Source of the DNA: a virus
IMG/VR virus record: IMGVR_UViG_3300032893_000103
Span: 1-44,347 of that record
Reading direction: 5' to 3' (one strand)
Length of the DNA: 44,347 nucleotides
Part shown: positions 12,225 through 39,152 of the stretch, piece after piece
How positions within the stretch are numbered: position 1 is the first letter of the stretch
Layout: each line of letters starts with the position of its first letter
Position numbers and translations under genes: made by a program
Notes under the pieces: generated by a model
Seen by the model: the letters and a program-made list of their open reading frames with translations, nothing else
The model's database searches: none
Told to the model about the DNA's origin: nothing

Positions 12225-12283
12225 AGATTCCTACTTCTATCCTTAGAATGACTGGGGAATTCGTCCTGAAGCGGCCCGTGCTC

Positions 12284-12299
12284 TCATTATTAAGATTTC
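12284..12299 (-). promoter_or_regulatory. Putative phage promoter motif, copy 1
   Basis: GAAATCTTAATAATGA, identical to the copies at 16649 and 26312. It lies 60 bases upstream of the 860-aa shaft gene and overlaps the last codons and stop (K-S-TAA) of the 78-aa gene. Confidence 0.65.
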
Positions 12300-16609: not shown

Positions 16610-16648
16610 AGGATTCCTTGGGAATTTCGAGGCGGGAAATGGGATGAT

Positions 16649-16664
16649 TCATTATTAAGATTTC
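16649..16664 (-). promoter_or_regulatory. Putative phage promoter motif, copy 2
   Basis: GAAATCTTAATAATGA on the minus strand, 40 bases upstream of the 57-aa gene. Downstream, TCCCGCCTC is shared with the copy at 37990-38005. Confidence 0.7.
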
Positions 16665-16681: not shown

Positions 16682-17029
16682 TCATTTGCGATCTCGATAG
16701 AATTCAGGAAGCTCCGGCAGCGGAACGGTCTTGCCCGAGAGTTCGTGCGTGCAGTCCGGACAGAACATCAGCATTCCACCGTGCAAATGATAGTGGCAAA
16801 TCTCTTTTATTGTATTCCCCGCTGAGTCCCGAACCCATTCGCCCAGCCATTTGCCATTTGAATCTTTTACAGTCTGCAAGCCTTCGTGCTTGAAACTTGG
16901 ATTGAACGTCGGCTTCTCAATATTACCGTCGAATTGCCAAGTGTTCGGGAGTGGGTGCATTTCTTTACATCCTGGACACCAGTGGCTGAATCCGTCTTCA
17001 GTTTTCCTCATGCACGCGCTGACTTGCAT
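16682..17029 (-). CDS. DUF6527-like zinc-site protein, 115 aa
   Basis: The pattern matches the widespread phage DUF6527-type protein: HWCPGC near residues 16-21, FDGNIEKPTFNPSF near 33-46, CHYHLHGG near 78-85, then MFCPDCTHELSGKTVPLPEL. C18, C21, C90, C93 and nearby His probably bind a metal. In databases such proteins are sometimes mislabelled as enzymes; the role is unknown. The ATG overlaps the stop of the tail-tube-like gene (TAATG). Its last base lies 18 bases before the promoter motif of the next unit. Confidence 0.75.
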   Translation of the reverse strand: MQVSACMRKTEDGFSHWCPGCKEMHPLPNTWQFDGNIEKPTFNPSFKHEGLQTVKDSNGKWLGEWVRDSAGNTIKEICHYHLHGGMLMFCPDCTHELSGKTVPLPELPEFYRDRK

Positions 17030-17457
17030 TAGCTACCCGACTTCTCGTTCGTGACGAAGATGCCCTTAAAGCTGGCGTTGAAGCTGATCGGTGCGCGAGC
17101 GTTGATGGTCCAACTGTCAGAGTCAAAAACGGCCTTCTGAACCGTTGCGATTGTTTCGTTTGAGGCTTTGTCCACAATTTCGATGGTCGCGTACTTGAAG
17201 CTGAAATAGCTCTGAATGCTGGACACATCCATGATTCCGTATCCGTCCAGCCCTCCTTGGCCGCGAATGCGAATCCCTGTGAGAGTTCCGCGAACGGAGT
17301 AGGTCGTTGGAAAAATTTCCTGTGGGAGTGGATTGTCAATGACGTAGAGTTCTTTGGTGTTGGTCGAGCGTGTATAAGCGAATCCAGTTGCAAATCCTAC
17401 AACGCTGCCATTGATGACGAGCCGGACGCCCGCGCCGGTCTGGATTACCTGTTGCAT
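17029..17457 (-). CDS. Tail-tube-like protein, 142 aa
   Basis: A compact all-beta protein: GAGVRLVINGSVVGFATGFA at residues 8-27, DNPLPQEIFPTTYSVRGTLT at 41-60, FSFKYATIEIVDKASNE at ~85-101 and WTINARAPISFNASFKGIFV near the C-terminus. This strand order resembles XkdM-type or gp19-type tail tube subunits, here shorter than usual. It is odd that it sits downstream of the baseplate genes and not before the chaperone pair, so a baseplate-tube or completion protein is possible. GAGGA lies 10 bases before the ATG. It follows the hairpin array at 17458-17817. Confidence 0.5.
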   Translation of the reverse strand: MQQVIQTGAGVRLVINGSVVGFATGFAYTRSTNTKELYVIDNPLPQEIFPTTYSVRGTLTGIRIRGQGGLDGYGIMDVSSIQSYFSFKYATIEIVDKASNETIATVQKAVFDSDSWTINARAPISFNASFKGIFVTNEKSGS

Positions 17458-17817: not shown

Positions 17818-18015
17818 TTAAGCAATATCATTCTCTTCCAACCATTTGAGCCACAAGTGCTCAGGCTTGACAACCAATCGACCGCGCCGCTGAATCATTT
17901 TCCGGAGTGCGCGATGCACGACCTTGCGTGCCCTGATCCGGTATTTGAAGTCGCCATCCAGCAGACGCTTCATGGATTTCATAGTTACGAGCGTTTCATA
18001 ATTTATGAAAATCAC
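17818..18015 (-). CDS. Small basic hypothetical protein, 65 aa
   Basis: GTG 18015-18013 overlaps the TGA of the preceding wedge gene (GTGA). An in-frame ATG at 17982 (MKSMKRLLDGDF) is an alternative start; neither has a Shine-Dalgarno. The product is very basic and helical (RIRARKVVHRALRKMIQRRG), ending HLWLKWLEENDIA. Possibly nucleic-acid binding, but no known fold is recognised. The inverted-repeat array begins right after its stop. Confidence 0.5.
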   Translation of the reverse strand: MIFINYETLVTMKSMKRLLDGDFKYRIRARKVVHRALRKMIQRRGRLVVKPEHLWLKWLEENDIA

Positions 18016-20063
18016 AGGAAGTCACCGGCATAGATGTAACCCGGAACGTCGTGGAGTCCTGGCCCTTTCGGGTACACGATGATGACGTTTAGGAAAATGC
18101 CAGCGGCTTTCAAACTTTCAATCAAATCTTGGGCTTGCACGCGACCATTGATGGTGCCGGTCAGGTATGTGGCAAGATCGGTTCCATCGGGCTTCGGCGT
18201 GTAAGGTTTACGATCCTTGAGCAGAATTACAGAAGTTCCGGAAGCGTGTGTTTTCTGGAATTTGTACGACGGATCGAGGAGTAGCGAGCCGGATGATGGG
18301 CGGCCAAGATATTTCACCGGGCCTTCCTGATTGCTAGTTCCCCAGTCGAACACGAGATAGCCGGACTCGTCTGGGAATTGCGACGTGTCAACGCCAAAGA
18401 GAACCGTTTCCAAACTGCCCGCGAAGATGCCCTGAGTCAGAGTCGTGCGCGTCTTGCTGATTGGGAATCCGGATTTCGGATCAAATGTGTAGGCCGACAG
18501 GAAGTTCTTGTCAGCCGCTGAGTTGTGAACGTGCCACGAGCCGCGAAGAAGCCGCTTGACGATCTTTGTTGTTGCGGGCAAGAATACCACAATTTCGTAT
18601 GGATTGACTTCATACACAGATGCGTAGCGCGTGAGCTTTTGAATGACTTGGCGCTGCGGCGTGAAAAAGGTTAGATCGTTTGATCCGTCCTGCGTATATG
18701 TGAACGTATTGGAGCCTGCGCTGGTGATCGTGTATGTTCCGTCGAATGAAGAATCGCGCACGCCTTCGACAGCAACTGATTGGCCAGCGACTAAGTTGTG
18801 GTTCGTGGTCAGAGTGATTGTCGTGACTCCGCTCGAACGCGACGTGCCATCAAGAGTTTGAATTTCATAGACAACAGCCGCTGATCCGCCGCCCGATGTC
18901 GCATTGACGCCGAGTTGTGAGTATTGAAAAGAATTCAACGCTGGAGTCGCGGTGATGATGAAAGATCCGTTGAACGACGTGTTGTCAACGCCCGCGATTG
19001 TGACTGTCTGGCCGGTCGAGAATCCATGATTGGCCTGTGTGTTGACCGTTACCACATTTGAGGTACGAGAAACGCCAGTCGGTGATGGCTGAATGAACGC
19101 GGTTGACGTGACAGTTCCGCCGCCCGATGCTCCTGGGACCTGAGTCAGTGTCACTGGTGATTGCGGGACGAATGCAGGATTGATGATTTCAAAGAACGCC
19201 GATCCGACCGGACCATCTTGCACGTTCTCGACTGTGAATGTTCCGCGATTGACTTCGAGATAGCCATTGCCGTAAATGTTGACGTAATCGCCGGGATTCA
19301 CAAAAGCCAGCGCGGGCGATGGGCCTGCTGTCCAGGTAAACCTTACATATGGACCATCGAACGATGTTGTGAATTGCGTACCGACTTTCGGGATCGCCTG
19401 CGTTGCCAGCGGAAATTGCAGGACGTTCTGGGCCGATCCTCCAAGCACGGTAACCGATGATTTTGGACCTTTGGTGCCGGACATCAATTGGACGAAATTC
19501 AAGCCGGTATTCGCATCGAGAAATACGTTCGCGGCCAGCGTGTAGCCGGAATTGAACGACGTGCGCGAGATTACGTTGGCAATCTCAGTCGCCGATGCGT
19601 CTGCTATGTCCGTGAAATCTGTTACGCGAAAGGTGACAATCAGGGGAGTAGGGCTGTTGTCAACCTGGAGGAGCAGCGTCATGCCGTCCTGCATCGCGTA
19701 ACCTTCGGGCCGTCCTGATAAAACGTTGGCCCTGGTCGCGTCCGATCCATAGAAGATTTCGAGGACATCGAGGAAAATGTTGGTGACGAGTTTGTTGCTA
19801 GTTTGCTGCACGCCGATCTGCCGGAATAGATCGTCAGAGATACCGACGCCGGGCGGACGGTTCACGCCAATTCCAGCCATCAATCGGTCGAGGTATTGGC
19901 CTTGCGCAGTCCAGATGAACATATTGGGCTTGGCCGAGAGCAAAAGGGTAGAGTTCGCATCGTCGCCGTCAGCGAGAGCCGCGATCATGGCGTCCGTGAA
20001 CTTCCCTTTGATGGAAGGATTCAGGAAGCGTCTCAGTCTTTTGATGGTGTCAACCAGTGCCAT
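18012..20063 (-). CDS. Second baseplate J-like wedge protein, 683 aa
   Basis: Residues 50-85 contain TAQGQYLDRLMAGIGVNRPP ... DDLFRQIG, like the YLDRLa..GV.R..G.sD..fR core of phage baseplate J/gp6-type wedge proteins. Two tandem beta modules follow (residues ~329-391 and ~406-465: NHGFSTGQTVTIAGVDNTSF, NHNLVAGQSVAVEGVRDSSF). The C-terminus (DLIESLKAAGIFLNVIIVYP) resembles the terminal domain of J-like proteins. It follows the giant J protein, so it may be the second partner of the wedge. No ribosome site is visible; the ATG lies right after the hairpin array at 20064-20468. Confidence 0.6.
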   Translation of the reverse strand: MALVDTIKRLRRFLNPSIKGKFTDAMIAALADGDDANSTLLLSAKPNMFIWTAQGQYLDRLMAGIGVNRPPGVGISDDLFRQIGVQQTSNKLVTNIFLDVLEIFYGSDATRANVLSGRPEGYAMQDGMTLLLQVDNSPTPLIVTFRVTDFTDIADASATEIANVISRTSFNSGYTLAANVFLDANTGLNFVQLMSGTKGPKSSVTVLGGSAQNVLQFPLATQAIPKVGTQFTTSFDGPYVRFTWTAGPSPALAFVNPGDYVNIYGNGYLEVNRGTFTVENVQDGPVGSAFFEIINPAFVPQSPVTLTQVPGASGGGTVTSTAFIQPSPTGVSRTSNVVTVNTQANHGFSTGQTVTIAGVDNTSFNGSFIITATPALNSFQYSQLGVNATSGGGSAAVVYEIQTLDGTSRSSGVTTITLTTNHNLVAGQSVAVEGVRDSSFDGTYTITSAGSNTFTYTQDGSNDLTFFTPQRQVIQKLTRYASVYEVNPYEIVVFLPATTKIVKRLLRGSWHVHNSAADKNFLSAYTFDPKSGFPISKTRTTLTQGIFAGSLETVLFGVDTSQFPDESGYLVFDWGTSNQEGPVKYLGRPSSGSLLLDPSYKFQKTHASGTSVILLKDRKPYTPKPDGTDLATYLTGTINGRVQAQDLIESLKAAGIFLNVIIVYPKGPGLHDVPGYIYAGDFL

Positions 20064-20468
20064 AAGTGAAAATAGTATTTCCGTTAAGCGGTTTTTTGGT
20101 AAAAATAATTGCCGTTGAGGGAATTTTGGTCAAAATTCTTCTCACTACAGGGAGAATTGGTAAAAATAATGAGCTTTGAGCGAATTTTTCTCATTGCGGT
20201 GAGAATACCCCGCGCAAAGGGTAAACACGAAATACCCCTCATGTGGGGTAGACCATTATAGTAGCCTGAATTCGGGTTTCGGTCGGGTTTCAGACCATTA
20301 AAGTAGCCTACCAACGGATTGCAAAAAATGTCGCAAAAAAGCGACAATTGGCTATTATAATGGACATTATGGGGCTTAATGAGCATTATAATGGACATTC
20401 TTTCCAGAAAACTAGAAAATATAGCAGTTTGTTGATATTTTTCCGAATTCTTTCTAGTTTTCAAGGAA
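20064..20468. repeat. Intergenic array of inverted and direct repeats, 405 bp
   Basis: No supported gene. Hairpins: CCG-TTAAG-CGG (20081-20091); GAATTTTG-GT-CAAAATTC (20121-20138); TTCTC/GAGAA (20139-20156); TTCTCA-TTGCGG-TGAGAA (20188-20205); TACCC/GGGTA (20206-20223); TACCCC-TCATGT-GGGGTA (20233-20250); TGTCGC-AAAAAA-GCGACA (20329-20346); GAAAACTAGAAA/TTTCTAGTTTTC (20407-20418/20451-20462). Direct repeats: AGACCATTA(T/A)AGTAGCCT at 20250 and 20292; ATTATAATGGACATT at 20354 and 20385, which is partly the inverse of the previous pair. GGTAAAAATAAT occurs at 20098 and 20158. Confidence 0.85.
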
Positions 20469-23400
20469 TTATACCGCCTGAGAGACGATCACATCGGTCG
20501 TGATGTTCTGCACAACCGGCTTCTCGTTGAACTGCGAAATGATCTGGTCGTTCGTGGAGTTGTAAGTCGGTGACGAGATGCTGACCGCTTGTATGCCATT
20601 GATTTCTTGCACGGTACTGACAATTTCAGAGAACACGACGGGTTCGCCAACGCCCAAGCTGTTGATGTAAGCCGCGACGGCGTTTTGCACGCGAGACTTG
20701 ATCGTATTGAAGGAAACGCCTGTGCGATCCCGAACGACGATTGCGACTTGGATGCGCTTCGGAAGTGGTGAAGAAATTTCAATGAATGAGCCAGCAGCGC
20801 CGACGCCGGGATATGTCGTAGGATCTGTCGCTTGACCACGAATCACTTTGCCGACTTCGTGAATCAGCCCCATCCAATGCTTGTACGAGTCTTCGCCAAT
20901 TTGAACGGTAGTCGTGAATCCGAGTTTGCTCACTGCGCTCATGCCGGTTCCAGCCGAAATGTTCAGCTTGTCAGGCAGAATTGCGTTGTCTGTAATAATT
21001 GCAAAGCCGTTGATATTTGCGGGATCGGGCGTGATGTTGAGCAATTGACGATAAGCGAAGAACGGAGCTTTCTCAAGAATCGTGACGTTCGCAACGCTAG
21101 GTCCGAGAACCGTTGACGATTGGTTGGTCGCAAACGATGGAGTCACGGCGATTGCTGTCGCGGTAGGGAATGGAGAAGACGCAACGACATACGTTCCTTT
21201 ATTGAGCGCGCCCAAGATGGTGTCGCCAAGGATGAGTTCATCGCCAGGCATTACAGAGTCATATGCGTAGAAGCTGAGATCGGAATTGCCTGCCATCGTG
21301 ACTTCTTCTTCAAGGCCGGTAACGTTTACAACATAGAACGAGTCATTGTACATGCGCTCGACTTTGTAAATGCCTTGGTTGACGGCGTTGAAATTGCCGC
21401 TGACCTTAACCCAGTCGCCTTCCTGCACGCCGCCGCCCGCGAAATTGGGAGCAGTGCCTGTGCCAGTCCACGAGAATACGATGAATTGCGCCTGCTTTTC
21501 GACCTTAATTTGAGTTGTCGAGTTGGCAGACGTGGTGCGCGCAGTTTGGAATGTTCCAGGGCCGGACGTGATGTTCAGCGTGTTGAAGCCGGTGATCGAC
21601 ATTTGAGTCGTTTGACCAATTTGAATGTCTTTGGCCTGCGTGGCTGTATTTGCGAATTTGATCCATTGCCCAGCTTGGAATCCAGCTTGGTTTGCAACTC
21701 CAATCGAAGTGCGCACGAACGGACGAAGAACCTCGCCAGTTCCAGATGCCACGTTGATGATCGAGCCGCCAGAAGAACTGGAGTTAACGCCCAATTGGTT
21801 GAACGTAAACGAAGTGCCGACGGAAGTGCTCACGACTTTGAACGTGCCATCATATGAAGTGTCAGTAACGCCTGTAAGAGTTACATAGTCGCCAATCGCC
21901 AATTGATGCGGGGTAGATGTAACTACCGTGACCACATTGCTTGAGCGCGTGACAGATGTGATGTTCAGCGTCGGTTGAGCCTGAGCAATCGTGAACGTGC
22001 GTGCGGTCGTAGCGGTGATCGGGAACGTTCCGATAAATGTTGGGTTTGCAGGATTGGATATTGTTATAGAATCACCAACGAAAAGCCCATGTCTGTCCTT
22101 CGTTGCAACAATTACATTTGATCCAGAGCGAACGAGTCCATGAGGCTGATCTTCAATATCGCCCTGGACAACGAGTGCGCCGGTTGTGAGGAGTGCGCCG
22201 GTCGCTGAGTTCGCAGATCCACCAGACACCAACACAGATCCAGAAGATCCGAACAGGCTCGAATAGATTTGAACTTTGCCAGCGTCAGACGATACGCCGA
22301 TATTTCCCAGCGACGAGAGTCCAGTCACCGCGAAGATATTGAGGAAGCGTTGGATTTGGTCAGACGTTGCGGGAATCAAATAGAAGTCTTGGCCGACCAG
22401 CGTGTAATTGGGCGATGATTGCGGGATCTGAAGCGGAACTTTCAATTGGAATTGATTCACAGGAGAAAAGGTCGTGCCGATATTGCTGAGCGATACGGCA
22501 TTGAATCCGTCCACCAGTTGCACGAATTCGCTTGATCCTGCTTGGTCATCAAACGTCGATGTAGTAATTACACCAGCGCCAGATTCCAATTGAGAGATCG
22601 TGAAATATGACGAAAGGTTCGATGCCACATACTGCGCGAGAAGCGTTGCCGTGTTGTTTGTACCATTTAATGGGTACATTCGTAGGTCACTTGTAGCATT
22701 TAATTGGATGTTGTTCTCTACGACGCCATAGAACTGGGTGATTTCAAAATAGGTGTTAGTCACCGCAGAAATCTGATAGACGCCTGTGTTGTCGGGGCTG
22801 AAATTGGAAGTGATGTCAATATTTACAATGTCACCGACAGCGACCGTGGCCGACGAAACGAAATTGGGAGATGTTCCAACTCCATTCCAGGTGTAACGCC
22901 AGGTATTGCCAGCGGGATTGGTCACGTCGAATTGCGTGGTGGAATCCCATGCGCCGCCGAGTCTCTCAGAGCCGGATGACAAATAGAGTTTGATTTTGGT
23001 GTGGCGGTCAACGGACACGAAGCTCGTAATGGGTGAGCCGGGCTGAGTGGGATATGCAATCCCGATCATCAATTGTTCGCCGGTCGGTCCATACTTGGCA
23101 GACGAGAAAAGCATTTCATTGTTGGGGCCATTAGGATTTACAATCTGGCGAGCCTTGAGATAAATGAAGAAGTCTTTGAAATCGAAGTTGTTGCCAAATT
23201 GGTTGGCGTAATTGGCTGTCGGTCCGGCGTCCGTATCGTATGCGGTAAACTGATTCTGCGTGGGAGCCGTAGCACCATTAACAGTCCCGTGGCGCGCCAT
23301 TTTGATGTTGAGCGATTTGTTCACCGAATCATCATCGAGAATCACAACCAAATTGTCATTGGCTTCAAAGTTGAAAGGATTCGCTACGAAATAGCGATCA

Positions 23401-26219
23401 CCGCTCAATACGTCACGCAGTCTGTCTTGCGGACGCAAAGTCAATGAAGTTCCGGAGATTGCCGCCGACATAGCATAAATGCTTTTGTTGCTGGAAATCT
23501 TTCCATATGGATTCAGGAATGAAATCCAGTCATTCACAAATTGGGCGACAGATGTATTTGTTACAAGATTGATTGGCGGGACAGCCGAAGTGCCAGAAGC
23601 GATTGAGTCGTGTACGAACGTGGGAATCGTGACTTCAGAATTGCCAGACTCAGCGAACGCCGTATGTGTGACAGTGCTTGAGTCATATGCGCCCACTACG
23701 AATCCGAGAGGAGCCGGGGCATTAGTGGAACCCGCCAGCATGATGAAGCCGTTGAGGGCATATGTGTCGGTCGTTAAGCGTAAAACTTTCCCATTGACTG
23801 ACGAAGCGAATCCACCTTGAAGTTGCGTATTGATGTTGTTCGCAATCGCGGTGAGAGTCTGAAGGCCGGTCAAGAGATTCAATTGTTGGATCGAGCCATA
23901 CGATCTGATGAACGAAAACGAATTGTTGGACACCAAGCCAATTGGGCCGCCAGTCGTTCCAAGAGAATTGGTCAGGCGAATTTCAAAGTAATTGTTCGCC
24001 CTAGCCGATACGCGCCAATATCCAATGAAGTCGTTGTCGAGACTCCAAATAGCATCGTCCGCGATGATTACCCAATCGTTGACTGCCACGTTGGCAAAAG
24101 CGTTTGCCTCGCTTGAAGTAAAGCGCCATACGTTCGTCGATGGATTGGTGATTGTGATTTGCGAGGATGTGTTGGCCGTATTGGAAATGTACTGAGCCGC
24201 TTGATCGAGCGTCACCCAAAGGATTGGAGGCGCCGTATTTACGGTAGCGGGCGGAACAGTGACTGAGCCTGTAGAAATTTCAATAGAATCAACGAATGCC
24301 CGCGTGTTCTTGGAGCCAGCGGTGATTACGTCGCCGGGGCTGAGTGGGACTGCCAATTCAATTTGGCCTGTGGATCTATTGAGAGAATAGTCGCTTGCCT
24401 TACCAATTGATTGCAATTGGCCAGCCGACAATCCAAACATCTTGGACGCGAGAGAGCTTCCAGCAAATGTGAATATCAATTGAGCGAGATTGTTCGCGCC
24501 TTTATTGGACGTGAACTTCAATTGGTTCCCAGAGACTTCAACGGTCACGCCAGCGATCTTGGCATTCATTACGTTTGCCCATGCGCTAAGCGGATTGTTG
24601 TTTGAGAGAACCGAGAATCCAAACGCTACGAAGTCTGAGTCCGTGAACGTATATTGGATTTGCTGAGATTGGTCAGCTTGTATTGTAAGAGTTTCTCCGC
24701 TTGACATCGCGGCCCATTCTGATTGGGGCAGACTGAAAAGCGTAGGCACAACCCCGTCTTTGATGAGTAGAGCATCATTCTTATAGAGACGAAGGGAGTA
24801 TGTGAGATTGCTTGAGAAACCAAGGAATTCATTTGCGTCAACGTCATTTGGTCCAGACGGGGCAACGACTTGAATGTCTTCGTTCTGGAAGTCCTTAGCG
24901 AAGATCATGACCTGAGTCGAGCTATTGAATGCGCGTGCGCTAAACAATAGGGATGTGTCCGCATTGATTGCGTTTACAATTTCAAACGTGTCAGCCGCAT
25001 TCTGTGTTGCGAAATCAGAGTCCTGGAACTGATGCTCAGACAATTCGCCGCCCACTTTAATTGAGAGCTTCATTCCGCCAGTCAAAGCAAATGGAGCAGT
25101 GAACGAGCTAATTACGAGAGCCTTTGTAACATCTTCATTTTGCAATTGGAGGAATTCTTCGCCGCCATTTGCGTCATCAACAACCTGCTCAAAGCCTTGG
25201 CCAGAATAGATCGGCTGATATGCAGTCCCGTCATCAATATATAAGATGGACGGCTCACCGCGATTAGAAGGCTCAGACAATTTGGCCGACGTGCTGGTAC
25301 GGTTATCGTCTGTAGAAGTTACATCAGTGGCGAATGCTTCGACCGCGAGTTTCGTTCCCTTGGTCTTGGTCTGCTCGAAGTTCTTAATCTTCAGGCGGTA
25401 ATCGGCATCCGACATTTTGTCTTTGCCGGTAATGAAGTCAAGCGGATTGGTTACGCCAGCACCAGGGAATGGAGGAGTCGAAGGGAATGACGTAATTGAG
25501 CCAGCCGGTACGTTACCGCGAGTCCCGACTTGTGTGCAAACCACAGGGACATTCTGCAATGAATCTTCGCCATCAGGAATTGTAACGTTTGCGAGGATTT
25601 TGAATTGGACGGCGGGAGATGTTGCATTGCCTTGCGTTTGAACGTTTTGCCCAATTTGGACAGTTCTATTTCCGCCCTGCGCTAATACGACCGACTCATT
25701 TATATTGTGATTCTTGGTCGTTTGCGTGGACAAATTGATTTGGTAGTAATTCCCAATTGGCGTAATTGAGGAATATGCAATTGGACCTTCAATGTTATTT
25801 GATCCACGGCCCAAATAGATGCTGCCCGTCTGGGGAAATAGAGACGCATCCGAAACGTTAATTACGGTCGATCCAATTGGAGGAGCGGCTGTGCCTGCGT
25901 AAATCTTAGTGCTGATCTTTTTGAAATTGAGCGATTGCAATGTGACAACGCCGGTCGAGGGCCGGGCCTGCGGGCGGGGAACGCCTTTGCCATTTCCAAT
26001 ATTGTCCAGGTCCGTATCTTCTGCCCGGTCAATGTCGGTCGAGTTCAATGCAGCGATGATGTCGCCCTGGCTCCGCATATCGGAAAGCGATGCAGCTTCG
26101 AGGAAGCTGTTGACTGAAGATCCGGGGAAAAGGTCGTTGACGCCACTCTTCGTGACGAAAACTTGTCTCATGGACTTCAATATCTGCGAAAAGGGACGCG
26201 GACTTGGTGTGGATGGCAT
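20469..26219 (-). CDS. Giant baseplate J-type wedge protein, 1916 aa
   Basis: Residues 20-90 (GVNDLFPGSSVNSFLEAASL ... TDLDNIGNGKGVPRPQA) and ~225-300 (GTRGNVPAGSI ... DKMSDADYRLKI) are the conserved core of baseplate J/gp47/gp6 proteins. The last ~130 residues (RIQVAIVVRDRTGVSFNTIK, VQNAVAAYINSLGVGEPVVF) are the J C-terminal domain. Between them lie ~1450 extra residues of beta modules, including two HGL/HQL..G modules near 1360-1480. Usual J proteins are 300-700 aa. AAGAGA is 5 bases before the ATG, and the promoter motif is at 26312. It probably forms a very large wedge. Confidence 0.85.
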   Translation of the reverse strand: MPSTPSPRPFSQILKSMRQVFVTKSGVNDLFPGSSVNSFLEAASLSDMRSQGDIIAALNSTDIDRAEDTDLDNIGNGKGVPRPQARPSTGVVTLQSLNFKKISTKIYAGTAAPPIGSTVINVSDASLFPQTGSIYLGRGSNNIEGPIAYSSITPIGNYYQINLSTQTTKNHNINESVVLAQGGNRTVQIGQNVQTQGNATSPAVQFKILANVTIPDGEDSLQNVPVVCTQVGTRGNVPAGSITSFPSTPPFPGAGVTNPLDFITGKDKMSDADYRLKIKNFEQTKTKGTKLAVEAFATDVTSTDDNRTSTSAKLSEPSNRGEPSILYIDDGTAYQPIYSGQGFEQVVDDANGGEEFLQLQNEDVTKALVISSFTAPFALTGGMKLSIKVGGELSEHQFQDSDFATQNAADTFEIVNAINADTSLLFSARAFNSSTQVMIFAKDFQNEDIQVVAPSGPNDVDANEFLGFSSNLTYSLRLYKNDALLIKDGVVPTLFSLPQSEWAAMSSGETLTIQADQSQQIQYTFTDSDFVAFGFSVLSNNNPLSAWANVMNAKIAGVTVEVSGNQLKFTSNKGANNLAQLIFTFAGSSLASKMFGLSAGQLQSIGKASDYSLNRSTGQIELAVPLSPGDVITAGSKNTRAFVDSIEISTGSVTVPPATVNTAPPILWVTLDQAAQYISNTANTSSQITITNPSTNVWRFTSSEANAFANVAVNDWVIIADDAIWSLDNDFIGYWRVSARANNYFEIRLTNSLGTTGGPIGLVSNNSFSFIRSYGSIQQLNLLTGLQTLTAIANNINTQLQGGFASSVNGKVLRLTTDTYALNGFIMLAGSTNAPAPLGFVVGAYDSSTVTHTAFAESGNSEVTIPTFVHDSIASGTSAVPPINLVTNTSVAQFVNDWISFLNPYGKISSNKSIYAMSAAISGTSLTLRPQDRLRDVLSGDRYFVANPFNFEANDNLVVILDDDSVNKSLNIKMARHGTVNGATAPTQNQFTAYDTDAGPTANYANQFGNNFDFKDFFIYLKARQIVNPNGPNNEMLFSSAKYGPTGEQLMIGIAYPTQPGSPITSFVSVDRHTKIKLYLSSGSERLGGAWDSTTQFDVTNPAGNTWRYTWNGVGTSPNFVSSATVAVGDIVNIDITSNFSPDNTGVYQISAVTNTYFEITQFYGVVENNIQLNATSDLRMYPLNGTNNTATLLAQYVASNLSSYFTISQLESGAGVITTSTFDDQAGSSEFVQLVDGFNAVSLSNIGTTFSPVNQFQLKVPLQIPQSSPNYTLVGQDFYLIPATSDQIQRFLNIFAVTGLSSLGNIGVSSDAGKVQIYSSLFGSSGSVLVSGGSANSATGALLTTGALVVQGDIEDQPHGLVRSGSNVIVATKDRHGLFVGDSITISNPANPTFIGTFPITATTARTFTIAQAQPTLNITSVTRSSNVVTVVTSTPHQLAIGDYVTLTGVTDTSYDGTFKVVSTSVGTSFTFNQLGVNSSSSGGSIINVASGTGEVLRPFVRTSIGVANQAGFQAGQWIKFANTATQAKDIQIGQTTQMSITGFNTLNITSGPGTFQTARTTSANSTTQIKVEKQAQFIVFSWTGTGTAPNFAGGGVQEGDWVKVSGNFNAVNQGIYKVERMYNDSFYVVNVTGLEEEVTMAGNSDLSFYAYDSVMPGDELILGDTILGALNKGTYVVASSPFPTATAIAVTPSFATNQSSTVLGPSVANVTILEKAPFFAYRQLLNITPDPANINGFAIITDNAILPDKLNISAGTGMSAVSKLGFTTTVQIGEDSYKHWMGLIHEVGKVIRGQATDPTTYPGVGAAGSFIEISSPLPKRIQVAIVVRDRTGVSFNTIKSRVQNAVAAYINSLGVGEPVVFSEIVSTVQEINGIQAVSISSPTYNSTNDQIISQFNEKPVVQNITTDVIVSQAV

Positions 26220-26311
26220 TAAAATCTCTTAAACTATTAGGATCGTAGCGTTAGTAGGATGATCCTGATAACGCGGGGATCTTACTAACTTGATGGGACG
26301 GTGGGATACGT

Positions 26312-26327
26312 TCATTATTAAGATTTC
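26312..26327 (-). promoter_or_regulatory. Putative phage promoter motif, copy 3
   Basis: GAAATCTTAATAATGA on the minus strand, 92 bases upstream of the giant wedge gene. It is back to back with the plus-strand promoter at 26367-26395. Confidence 0.7.
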
Positions 26328-26366: not shown

Positions 26367-26395
26367 TTGACGCCACGGCGAGACTCTGGTAATGC
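26367..26395 (+). promoter_or_regulatory. sigma70-like promoter of plus-strand island 1
   Basis: TTGACG (26367-26372), 17-base spacer, TAATGC (26390-26395). The predicted transcript start near 26402 falls on the AAGGAGG ribosome site of the gene starting at 26413, giving a very short leader. Confidence 0.55.
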
Positions 26396-26412
26396 TGGTG
26401 AAGGAGGAATCC

Positions 26413-26805
26413 ATGAGAAAAACAAGCGCCATCGTCTACCAACAGATTAAACAGATGCTCAGCGTCCGTCGCTGGCAGGTTTACGAAATCCTCGAAGAAC
26501 ACGGCCCATTGACTTCTTCGGAGCTTTTCGAGATTTTCAAGGTCAAGCACAACTTCCCGTTTCGGTACAACGCCAACGTTCATTCTCGTTTGAACGAATT
26601 ACAAAAACTTGGCTTGGCACATGAAGTTGGCACCAAAGAATGCTCCGTGTCTGGGAATACAGTGATCCTGTGGGATGTGACCGGAAACCCGCCCAAGACC
26701 ATCACAAAGGAAGAGCAGATTCTTGAGTCGATTTCCAAGTTTGAGAAGAAACTTGAGCGCCTAAACGGCGAGCTTTCAAAGTTGCGTTCAAGTGCATCAC
26801 TTTGA
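26413..26805 (+). CDS. Winged-helix DNA-binding protein, 130 aa
   Basis: ATG 26413 is preferred over the in-frame ATG at 26392 because AAGGAGG (26401-26407) sits 5 bases before it. Residues ~10-75 form a winged-helix pattern: RRWQVYEILEEHGPLTSSEL, then FRYNANVHSRLNELQKLGLA, then a beta wing (SVSGNTVILWDV). Residues ~85-125 are a coiled coil (EEQILESISKFEKKLERLNG), probably for dimerisation. It resembles small MarR/ArsR-type regulators. First gene of a plus-strand island with its own promoter, so it may regulate the island or the flanking minus-strand units. Confidence 0.75.
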   Translation: MRKTSAIVYQQIKQMLSVRRWQVYEILEEHGPLTSSELFEIFKVKHNFPFRYNANVHSRLNELQKLGLAHEVGTKECSVSGNTVILWDVTGNPPKTITKEEQILESISKFEKKLERLNGELSKLRSSASL

Positions 26806-26872
26806 AACAACTAGCAAATTTTTCCTTTTCAAAATAACGTCAGCGCGCTATGCTTATTTGTAAGGCGCCCTG

Positions 26873-26961
26873 GCTCCTGAAACTCGAATCAGTCTGATAG
26901 TAGGGGCTGACGAGGCCGTTGCAAAGGCCGAGGGGATGCAGGTTCGACTCCTGCCTGGAGC
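26873..26961 (+). tRNA. tRNA-like gene, aberrant; type not assigned
   Basis: A canonical T arm (GCAGG TTCGACT CCTGC, 26938-26954) is followed by CTGGAGC, which pairs with GCTCCTG at 26873-26879 (6 of 7 pairs). A GGCC/GGCC hairpin with loop GTTGCAAA follows where an anticodon arm could be (T then GCA or TGC). The piece between acceptor and this hairpin is ~17 bases too long and no normal D arm can be drawn. No CCA is encoded. A T-run follows at 26965. Could be a decayed tRNA, a tRNA with an insertion, or another tRNA-like RNA. Confidence 0.4.
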
Positions 26962-37952: not shown

Positions 37953-37989
37953 AATTTACCTTGATTTTATGAGGCGGGAGATGGTGATT

Positions 37990-38005
37990 TCAATATTAAG
38001 ATTTC
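37990..38005 (-). promoter_or_regulatory. Putative phage promoter motif, copy 4 (variant)
   Basis: GAAATCTTAATATTGA on the minus strand, one base from the consensus, 38 bases upstream of the first tail gene. TCCCGCCTC lies downstream, as at copy 2. Confidence 0.65.
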
Positions 38006-38534: not shown

Positions 38535-38815
38535 TGTTTCTCGAACTGATGATTATTAGCGTTTGCGCACAGAATCGCGGCGGATGTACGGAATCTTCAG
38601 AAGCCTATTACAAGGGATCGCCAGAGCTTCAACAGATGGCGAAAAATGGTGAAAAATTTGCCAAGCAGAATATCCCGGCTCCAATCCTGGAATATGTGCT
38701 GCCGGTCGCGGGCGCAGCGGTGGGGAAAAAAGCAAGTATCAAGCTCTCAACGCATTGGGCAATCGAGATTGACAAGTCGGGCGGCGGAAGTGTGATGCTG
38801 AAGTGGACGTTCTGA
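38534..38815 (+). CDS. Small hypothetical protein, 93 aa
   Basis: The ATG overlaps the previous stop. The first 12 residues (MFLELMIISVCA) are hydrophobic but too short for a certain signal peptide. A segment at ~49-65 (APILEYVLPVAGAAVGKK) is hydrophobic and may contact a membrane. The C-terminus is beta-type (HWAIEIDKSGGGSVMLKWTF). No family is recognised. Second and last gene of the plus-strand island; repeats follow its stop. Confidence 0.55.
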   Translation: MFLELMIISVCAQNRGGCTESSEAYYKGSPELQQMAKNGEKFAKQNIPAPILEYVLPVAGAAVGKKASIKLSTHWAIEIDKSGGGSVMLKWTF

Positions 38816-38965
38816 TTGGCGGATCTTTTGGCGGCTATTTTGGCCGCTAATTTCGTATGGTTTTCCTAAGAAGTTCCGTATATTTCGCCTACAAAGTTCC
38901 GATCTAAATTCCGATCTTTTGGCCGATCTTTTGGCAAGTAAATCGAAGGAAAAACTTGCCAAAAA
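38816..38965. repeat. Intergenic repeats after plus-strand island 2
   Basis: No gene. GATCTTTTGGC occurs three times (38822, 38913, 38925). Inverted repeats: GCGGC-N7-GCCGC (38831-38847) and a perfect 10-bp TTTTGGCAAG/CTTGCCAAAA (38929-38938/38955-38964). GTTCCG or ATTCCG recurs at about 38874-38915. The 10-bp hairpin lies directly downstream of the aberrant tRNA on the minus strand and may bound its transcript. Confidence 0.7.
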
Positions 38966-39059
38966 GCGCGGAGGTGGGATTCTCACCCACAACCTGCCCA
39001 GCAATCAAGTTGCTGTTTACCCTACGGGGATGGCGCTCTAAATGTTGAGCTACTCCGCT
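38966..39059 (-). tRNA. Aberrant tRNA-like gene, 94 nt (Gln-like anticodon arm?)
   Basis: Acceptor AGCGGAG/CTCCGCG (6 of 7 pairs), TA, then a clean D stem GCTC/GAGC with loop AACATTTA, which lacks the GG of normal D loops. The T stem GTGGG/CCCAC has loop TGAGAAT instead of TTCRANY. An 18-base insertion separates the D arm from a hairpin CAGCA-ACTTGAT-TGCTG, readable as an anticodon arm with TTG (Gln) but C in place of T33. No CCA. Loss of both D-loop GG and T-loop TTC is consistent with loss of their normal contact. Decayed or specialised tRNA. Confidence 0.5.
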
Positions 39060-39075
39060 ATCCACAGTAATTTAG

Positions 39076-39152
39076 TGGTCGCGGGTGTGGGATTTGAACC
39101 CACGATCTCTGCCTTATGAGGGCAGCGAGATAGACCACTTCTCTAACCCGCA
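39076..39152 (-). tRNA. tRNA-Met(CAT), with encoded CCA
   Basis: 77 nt cloverleaf: acceptor TGCGGGT/ACCCGCG, D arm GAGA-AGTGGTCTA-TCTC, anticodon arm CTGCC-CTCATAA-GGCAG (CAT), T arm GTGGG-TTCAAAT-CCCAC, discriminator A and CCA. Pair 1-72 is U-G, unusual for an elongator and weak as in initiators, but the anticodon stem lacks three consecutive G:C pairs of the initiator type. CAT could also be an Ile2 tRNA. Confidence 0.9.

Follow-up and report, generated by a model that had tools for sequence, protein, structure and literature searches.

What lies at the junction between a baseplate gene and its downstream neighbour in this phage, and what might 405 bases be doing there when the corresponding genes of its relatives almost touch? 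The stretch of DNA analyzed here (the window) spans an IMG/VR contig in its entirety (44,347 bases); its long genes lie almost all on the minus strand, and tail or baseplate genes are common among them. Its relatives include Myxococcus phage Mx1 (169.6 kb) and uncultured contigs of up to about 171 kb. The gap and its flanking genes are as follows.

20469-26219, minus strand: upstream gene, 1916 aa, Baseplate_J (PF04865, 5.5e-11; phrog_6 baseplate wedge, 4.6e-32)
20064-20468, minus strand: noncoding AT-rich insert of 405 bases between the Baseplate_J gene and the 683-aa gene, recognized by composition, junction counts and fold
18012-20063, minus strand: downstream gene, 683 aa, conserved in the phage family, without a J domain (phrog_9998, unknown function, 2.3e-12)

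The initial annotation placed this gap between two J-type wedge genes, but PF04865 is detected only in the upstream gene. Similarly, the downstream gene had been described as having no ribosome site, whereas its start does possess a weak one (duplex of −3.5 kcal/mol); the ribosome-binding duplex of the J gene is −2.9 kcal/mol and several other window genes are likewise weak. The accompanying proposal that the J and 683-aa products are needed in different amounts found no support.

In 69 of the 74 measurable junctions of related contigs (a set that includes contigs that are near duplicates of each other) the J gene and the next gene lie 20 nt or less apart, with a median of 1. The J/683-aa junction measures 1 nt in L004-L006, 2 nt in L009-L011 and L013, 5 nt in L007 and 14 nt in phage Mx1. 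The two genes abut in relatives, and by this sequence comparison the 405-base gap is a lineage-specific noncoding insertion between otherwise contiguous tail genes. The relatives' stop-to-start distances of 1-2 nt suggest translational coupling, with the insert separating the genes in the window. Exceptions among the junctions are L065, L066, L069 and L070, which hold small open frames, and L060, which holds a noncoding gap. From the frames in the former four the junction is an accessory-gene hot spot; the frames differ from one another. The L060 gap is AT-rich, 112 nt long and carries a 12-bp hairpin, and L060 is also the nearest relative found for the 683-aa protein (61%). Spacers of this kind, noncoding and with a hairpin, may therefore occur at the junction outside the window as well, although the L060 gap bears no recognizable sequence likeness to that of the window. 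No near relative emerged when the J protein and an 846-aa protein served as bait, which left no close phages with and without the insert to compare.

The G+C content of the gap is 37.5% (0.375) as against 49% (0.494). RNA of the mRNA sense folds with a z score of −6.04 and antisense RNA with one of −4.35, and in neither case was any of 100 dinucleotide shuffles as stable. A regularity absent from the initial annotation concerns hairpin geometry: the sense strand carries eight 18-nt hairpins with a stem of 6 and a loop of 6 (6-6-6 hairpins), about six of them non-overlapping since two overlap others, against a shuffle mean of 0.26 and with none of 500 shuffles reaching this number. There is no excess on this strand at neighbouring loop lengths, and most other loop lengths are near background. 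The signal is much weaker when all perfect 6-bp stems are counted, whatever their loop length between 3 and 8 (5 against 1.1; 33 of 1000 shuffles). The antisense strand has four 6-6-6 hairpins as opposed to eight, G-U pairs forming only in the sense RNA, and in three couples (20267-20233, 20223-20188 and 20156-20121) the 18-mers adjoin or share one base. All of the inverted-repeat stems previously named in this gap are present, as are the two pairs of direct repeats, AGACCATTATAGTAGCCT/AGACCATTAAAGTAGCCT (20250, 20292) and ATTATAATGGACATT (20354, 20385), and repeat analysis bore out the claim that these pairs are partly inverse to each other. Read in the direction of transcription, the parts of the array are these.

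20402-20468, minus strand: long stem-loop directly after the J stop codon (12-bp perfect arm pair; −17.0 kcal/mol)
20407-20418 with 20451-20462: inverted repeat formed by the 12-bp arms GAAAACTAGAAA/TTTCTAGTTTTC
20380-20397, plus strand: operator-like 18-bp palindrome, site 4 (divergent), TGAGCATTATAATGGACA, 31 bp from site 3
20349-20366, plus strand: operator-like 18-bp palindrome, site 3, TGGCTATTATAATGGACA, in inverse orientation to sites 1 and 2
20323-20346, minus strand: terminator-like hairpin TGTCGC-TTTTTT-GCGACA followed by TTTTTT (6-bp stem, 20329-20346; −8.7 kcal/mol)
20292-20309, plus strand: operator-like 18-bp palindrome, site 2, AGACCATTAAAGTAGCCT, a motif also present in the related contigs G005 and G011
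20250-20267, plus strand: operator-like 18-bp palindrome, site 1, AGACCATTATAGTAGCCT, 42 bp start to start from site 2
20233-20250, minus strand: 6-6-6 hairpin TACCCC/GGGGTA
20206-20223, minus strand: 6-6-6 hairpin TACCCT/GGGGTA, with one G-U pair
20188-20205, minus strand: 6-6-6 hairpin TTCTCA/TGAGAA, adjoining the TACCCT/GGGGTA hairpin
20139-20156, minus strand: 6-6-6 hairpin TTCTCC/TGAGAA, with one mismatch
20121-20138, minus strand: palindrome GAATTTTG/CAAAATTC, adjoining the TTCTCC/TGAGAA hairpin
20096-20205, minus strand: diverged tandem duplication, units of about 49 and 61 nt with TTCTC hairpins (79-81% identity)

Sites 3 and 4 (20349 and 20380) are inverted copies that have diverged in sequence. 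At 20346-20323 a GC-rich stem-loop is followed by a U tract on the coding strand, the arrangement of an intrinsic terminator. The folding, this U-tract hairpin and the breaking of an abutting gene pair all uphold the earlier view of the gap as structured, non-random and able to separate expression. A search of the window's remaining gaps, which the initial annotation had proposed, found no similar array; among other family loci, none of 98 gaps had a fold z score below −3.3. The strong hairpin gaps of the relative G002 proved to be IS200/IS605-like repeats, and loop-6 peaks in G002 and G004 proved to be 12-nt tandem repeats. Rfam 15 returned no family above its curated threshold in the gap, the best sub-threshold match (mir-2001, E 0.058) being attributable to chance, and a literature search for comparable arrays found nothing matching.

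Part of the array recurs in G005, the 154-kb contig of L008 and L058. Within the same operon of this contig, a noncoding gap of 158 nt (111755-111912), rich in hairpins, is bordered on one side by a small accessory gene and on the other, immediately after it, by the homolog of window gene 17029-17457; a slightly wider stretch (111722-111988) has a fold z score of about −4.5. The G005 gap carries AGACCACTTAAGTAGTCT and AGACCATTAAAGTAGTCT 42 bp apart together with a TGTCGC/GCGACA hairpin, the window equivalents being AGACCATTATAGTAGCCT and AGACCATTAAAGTAGCCT, likewise 42 bp apart, and a hairpin of the same stem. The pair common to the two, RGACYAYTWWARTRGYCY, thus has a spacing of exactly 42 bp in both. 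It is on the plus strand in the window and on the minus strand in G005 and, as both operons run on the minus strand, its orientation is opposite in the two phages.

When 2.9 million viral contigs were scanned with a generalized form of the pair, only G005 and G011 (153.5 kb) matched, both at 42 bp, and a scan of start-to-start spacings from 24 to 54 brought nothing beyond these two. Although the scan used no protein information, G011 encodes a homolog of the 683-aa protein, as does G005; since only a tiny fraction of the collection belongs to this family, we take the coincidence as a sign that the pair is genuine. We estimate the probability of a chance match anywhere in the collection at ~10^-3 or less assuming independent bases, a figure that is optimistic because sequence can duplicate locally and form palindromes. 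The G011 copy of the pair does not sit in a noncoding gap but overlaps the beginning of a lipoprotein-like gene, and this location, unlike those in the window and G005, is the weakest point of the case for a shared element. The reading frame in which the pair falls differs among the three phages, and its conservation extends beyond the arms to the six central bases (YTWWAR). G005 and G011 have one pair per record, and single exact sites have no further occurrence in the 48 family records. The pair is missing from 46 of these 48 records, many of which are fragments, and therefore does not serve the family as a general control site; it is also absent from a genome collection of 84,980 species. 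The exact site GGCTACTWTAATGGTCT has three matches in viral contigs, in coding-like sequence of unrelated phages, which we ascribe to chance, and a match to an Aminobacter plasmid (47 nt, E 0.009) has no shared palindromes around it and was treated in the same way. Genes common only to G005 and G011 include no obvious regulator.

With respect to transcription, the minus-strand motif GAAATCTTAATAWTGA occurs in four exact copies in the window (12283-12299, 16648-16664, 26311-26327 and 37989-38005), all of them in intergenic gaps upstream of minus-strand genes, and the related forms AGATCTTAATCATGA and AGATCTTAATCCTGA stand upstream of J and another late-operon gene in G005. This motif is probably a phage late promoter. 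In both the window and G005, promoter-like motifs ATCTTAATNNTGA are found upstream of two genes, J and one that lies further downstream, and from their positions the arrays apparently lie inside one transcription unit. The promoter-like motif of other gaps is absent from 20064-20468, so that expression of the 683-aa gene would require either transcription reading through from J or some other promoter; a promoter search of the gap produced only weak 9-of-12 consensus matches.

Rather than being a product of chance, the insert is probably a control region able to move, and regulation is its likeliest role. We tentatively favour, while holding it somewhat doubtful, an explanation in which a lineage-specific noncoding control cassette, consisting of paired operator-like sites and a terminator-like hairpin, has been inserted into the tail operon at the junction of two otherwise contiguous genes. 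The core of such a cassette would be the 18-bp palindromes flanking the terminator-like hairpin, with sites 1 and 2 separated by 42 bp (four turns) and sites 3 and 4 by 31 bp (about three), and a dimeric DNA-binding protein might occupy the palindromes on one face of the helix. The sites and hairpins would cut transcription or translation arriving from J, placing the 683-aa gene, along with those that follow it, under separate control. The cassette might also be transferred between phages.

Independence of orientation, fixed helical spacing and differing reading frames point to a site acting at the DNA level. Given, in addition, the four-turn spacing and the retention of central bases along with the arms, a protein-bound double-stranded site appears, with modest confidence, to fit the palindrome pair better than an RNA stem does. 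As in an operator cluster, dyad-symmetric sites of one sequence are repeated (sites 1-4; G005 and G011) and their helical spacing is fixed, at 42 bp in all three phages. Against an operator reading, a single DNA-binding protein would not account for the remaining hairpins, whose stems are unrelated. The DNA and RNA levels may both be relevant, and it is with modest confidence that we put the DNA reading first.

Among the alternatives, an array acting in the RNA, the idea behind the initial annotation, with hairpins that end, pause, process or stabilize the transcript so that J and the downstream products differ in amount, seems to us unlikely but deserves serious weight. It would account for the stronger fold of the sense strand (z −6.0 versus −4.35), for the eight sense-strand 6-6-6 hairpins versus four antisense, a difference that comes via G-U pairs, and for the −17 kcal/mol stem-loop right after the J stop and the U-tract hairpin. 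It sits poorly with G005, where, with respect to the operon, the AGACCA pair lies the other way round, its hairpins have C-A mismatches in the sense RNA and the sense strand shows no loop-6 excess, and with the lack of any Rfam match beyond chance. Slightly less probable is a functionless noncoding element, mobile or hitch-hiking (MITE-like or MPME-like), that came to rest where it does least harm. The foreign composition and exact intergenic placement of the insert agree with this, as do its patchy occurrence and the differing junctions and orientations in the window and G005. However, no terminal inverted repeats or target duplication stand out (the gap ends have only a weak TGAAAA similarity, seen by eye), there is no second copy in the window or any relative and no near-identical copy in phages or plasmids, and the window and G005 arrays have modules rather than full-length sequence in common.

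We consider it improbable that the gap is a DNA-transaction site with iteron-like palindromes, serving recombination, replication start, partition or as a satellite signal. The AT-richness of the gap, the pairing of palindromes on the same face of the helix and the single pair per record in G005 and G011 would suit such a site; the absence of a GC-skew change at the gap, of the pair from most family members and of any replication or recombination gene found nearby speaks against it. Least probable is a small accessory gene, a 126-aa ORF (20084-20464, minus strand) that fills the gap. A frame of this length arose in only 8 of 2000 shuffles, and other relatives have small open frames at the same junction, but its coding score is −0.29 compared with about +0.3 to +0.4 for most neighbours (two other small ORFs in the window are also negative), no homolog was found, and the homologous stretch of G005 does not keep the frame open.

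Moron-type insertions are extra genes between phage structural genes with their own promoter and terminator. The window insert resembles them in being lineage-specific, of foreign composition, placed exactly between conserved genes and furnished with a terminator-like hairpin, but it lacks a convincing gene and consists mostly of palindromes; having neither homologs nor coding-like codon use, the 126-aa frame was rejected as a protein-coding moron. The operator clusters and stoperators of phage repressors, as in cluster A mycobacteriophages (PMC9283540), are likewise short repeated intergenic sites inside a structural operon and suited to stopping transcription, but with stoperators the resemblance goes no further than the notion of having sites within operons. 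Stoperators are asymmetric, numerous and scattered across the genome, whereas the sites described here are 18-bp palindromes that come in pairs of fixed spacing, at a single location in each record. The mycobacteriophage mobile elements MPME1 and MPME2, ultra-small phage inserts of 439 bp (PMC3029335), are similar only in size (439 versus 405 bp), as the window insert has no clear end repeats or multiple near-identical copies; identity with them was dismissed, there being no long match to the gap in the phage collection. In the relative G002 (L037-L042) we observed a noncoding element in four or more copies (20.5-20.8, 35.3-35.6, 111.86-112.15 and 113.3-113.6 kb), ending in hairpins CCCATGACTTTAGTCGTGGG and scattered between phage genes; these repeats are apparently IS200/IS605-associated palindromic elements. 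Like the window array they are hairpin-rich noncoding inserts of a few hundred bases, but the array is single-copy and has no CCCATGACTTTAGTCGTGGG-type end hairpins. The gap is matched to no known element family.

Phage mosaicism is usually described in terms of genes that are exchanged, and here it is noncoding control DNA, set into a tail structural operon, that seems to have been exchanged or inserted, with a spacing rule for the palindrome pair that is kept between distant family members. A broader proposal, which we regard as unlikely, is a class of transplantable cassettes, each with a pair locked at four turns and a structure-rich leader, moving between late-operon junctions of a large-phage family, bound by a phage or host protein and rewiring tail-gene expression. 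If the control cassette that we favour is indeed bound by a regulator, the 18-bp site pair would be a handle for finding that regulator in uncultured large phages. One possible candidate is a 137-aa winged-helix-like ORF at 26392-26805 (plus strand), of which no homolog was found in G005 or G011. This ORF lies on the strand opposite to the operon and has a weak, sub-threshold match to winged-helix HVO_A0114 (E 0.0026).

Other gaps of the window have features of their own. Sequences at about 26860-26955 and 38975-39060 look tRNA-like by eye, were not called by ARAGORN and are possibly degenerate tRNAs. Adjoining tRNA-Met (39076-39152), the stretch 38810-38965 has degenerate 12-nt repeats (GATCTTTTGGCC) and an 11-bp inverted repeat, and it is perhaps what the initial annotation had in mind as a first hairpin array. 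Repeats of 12 nt with other sequences also occur in the relatives G002 (68.0-69.2 kb) and G004 (1-240).
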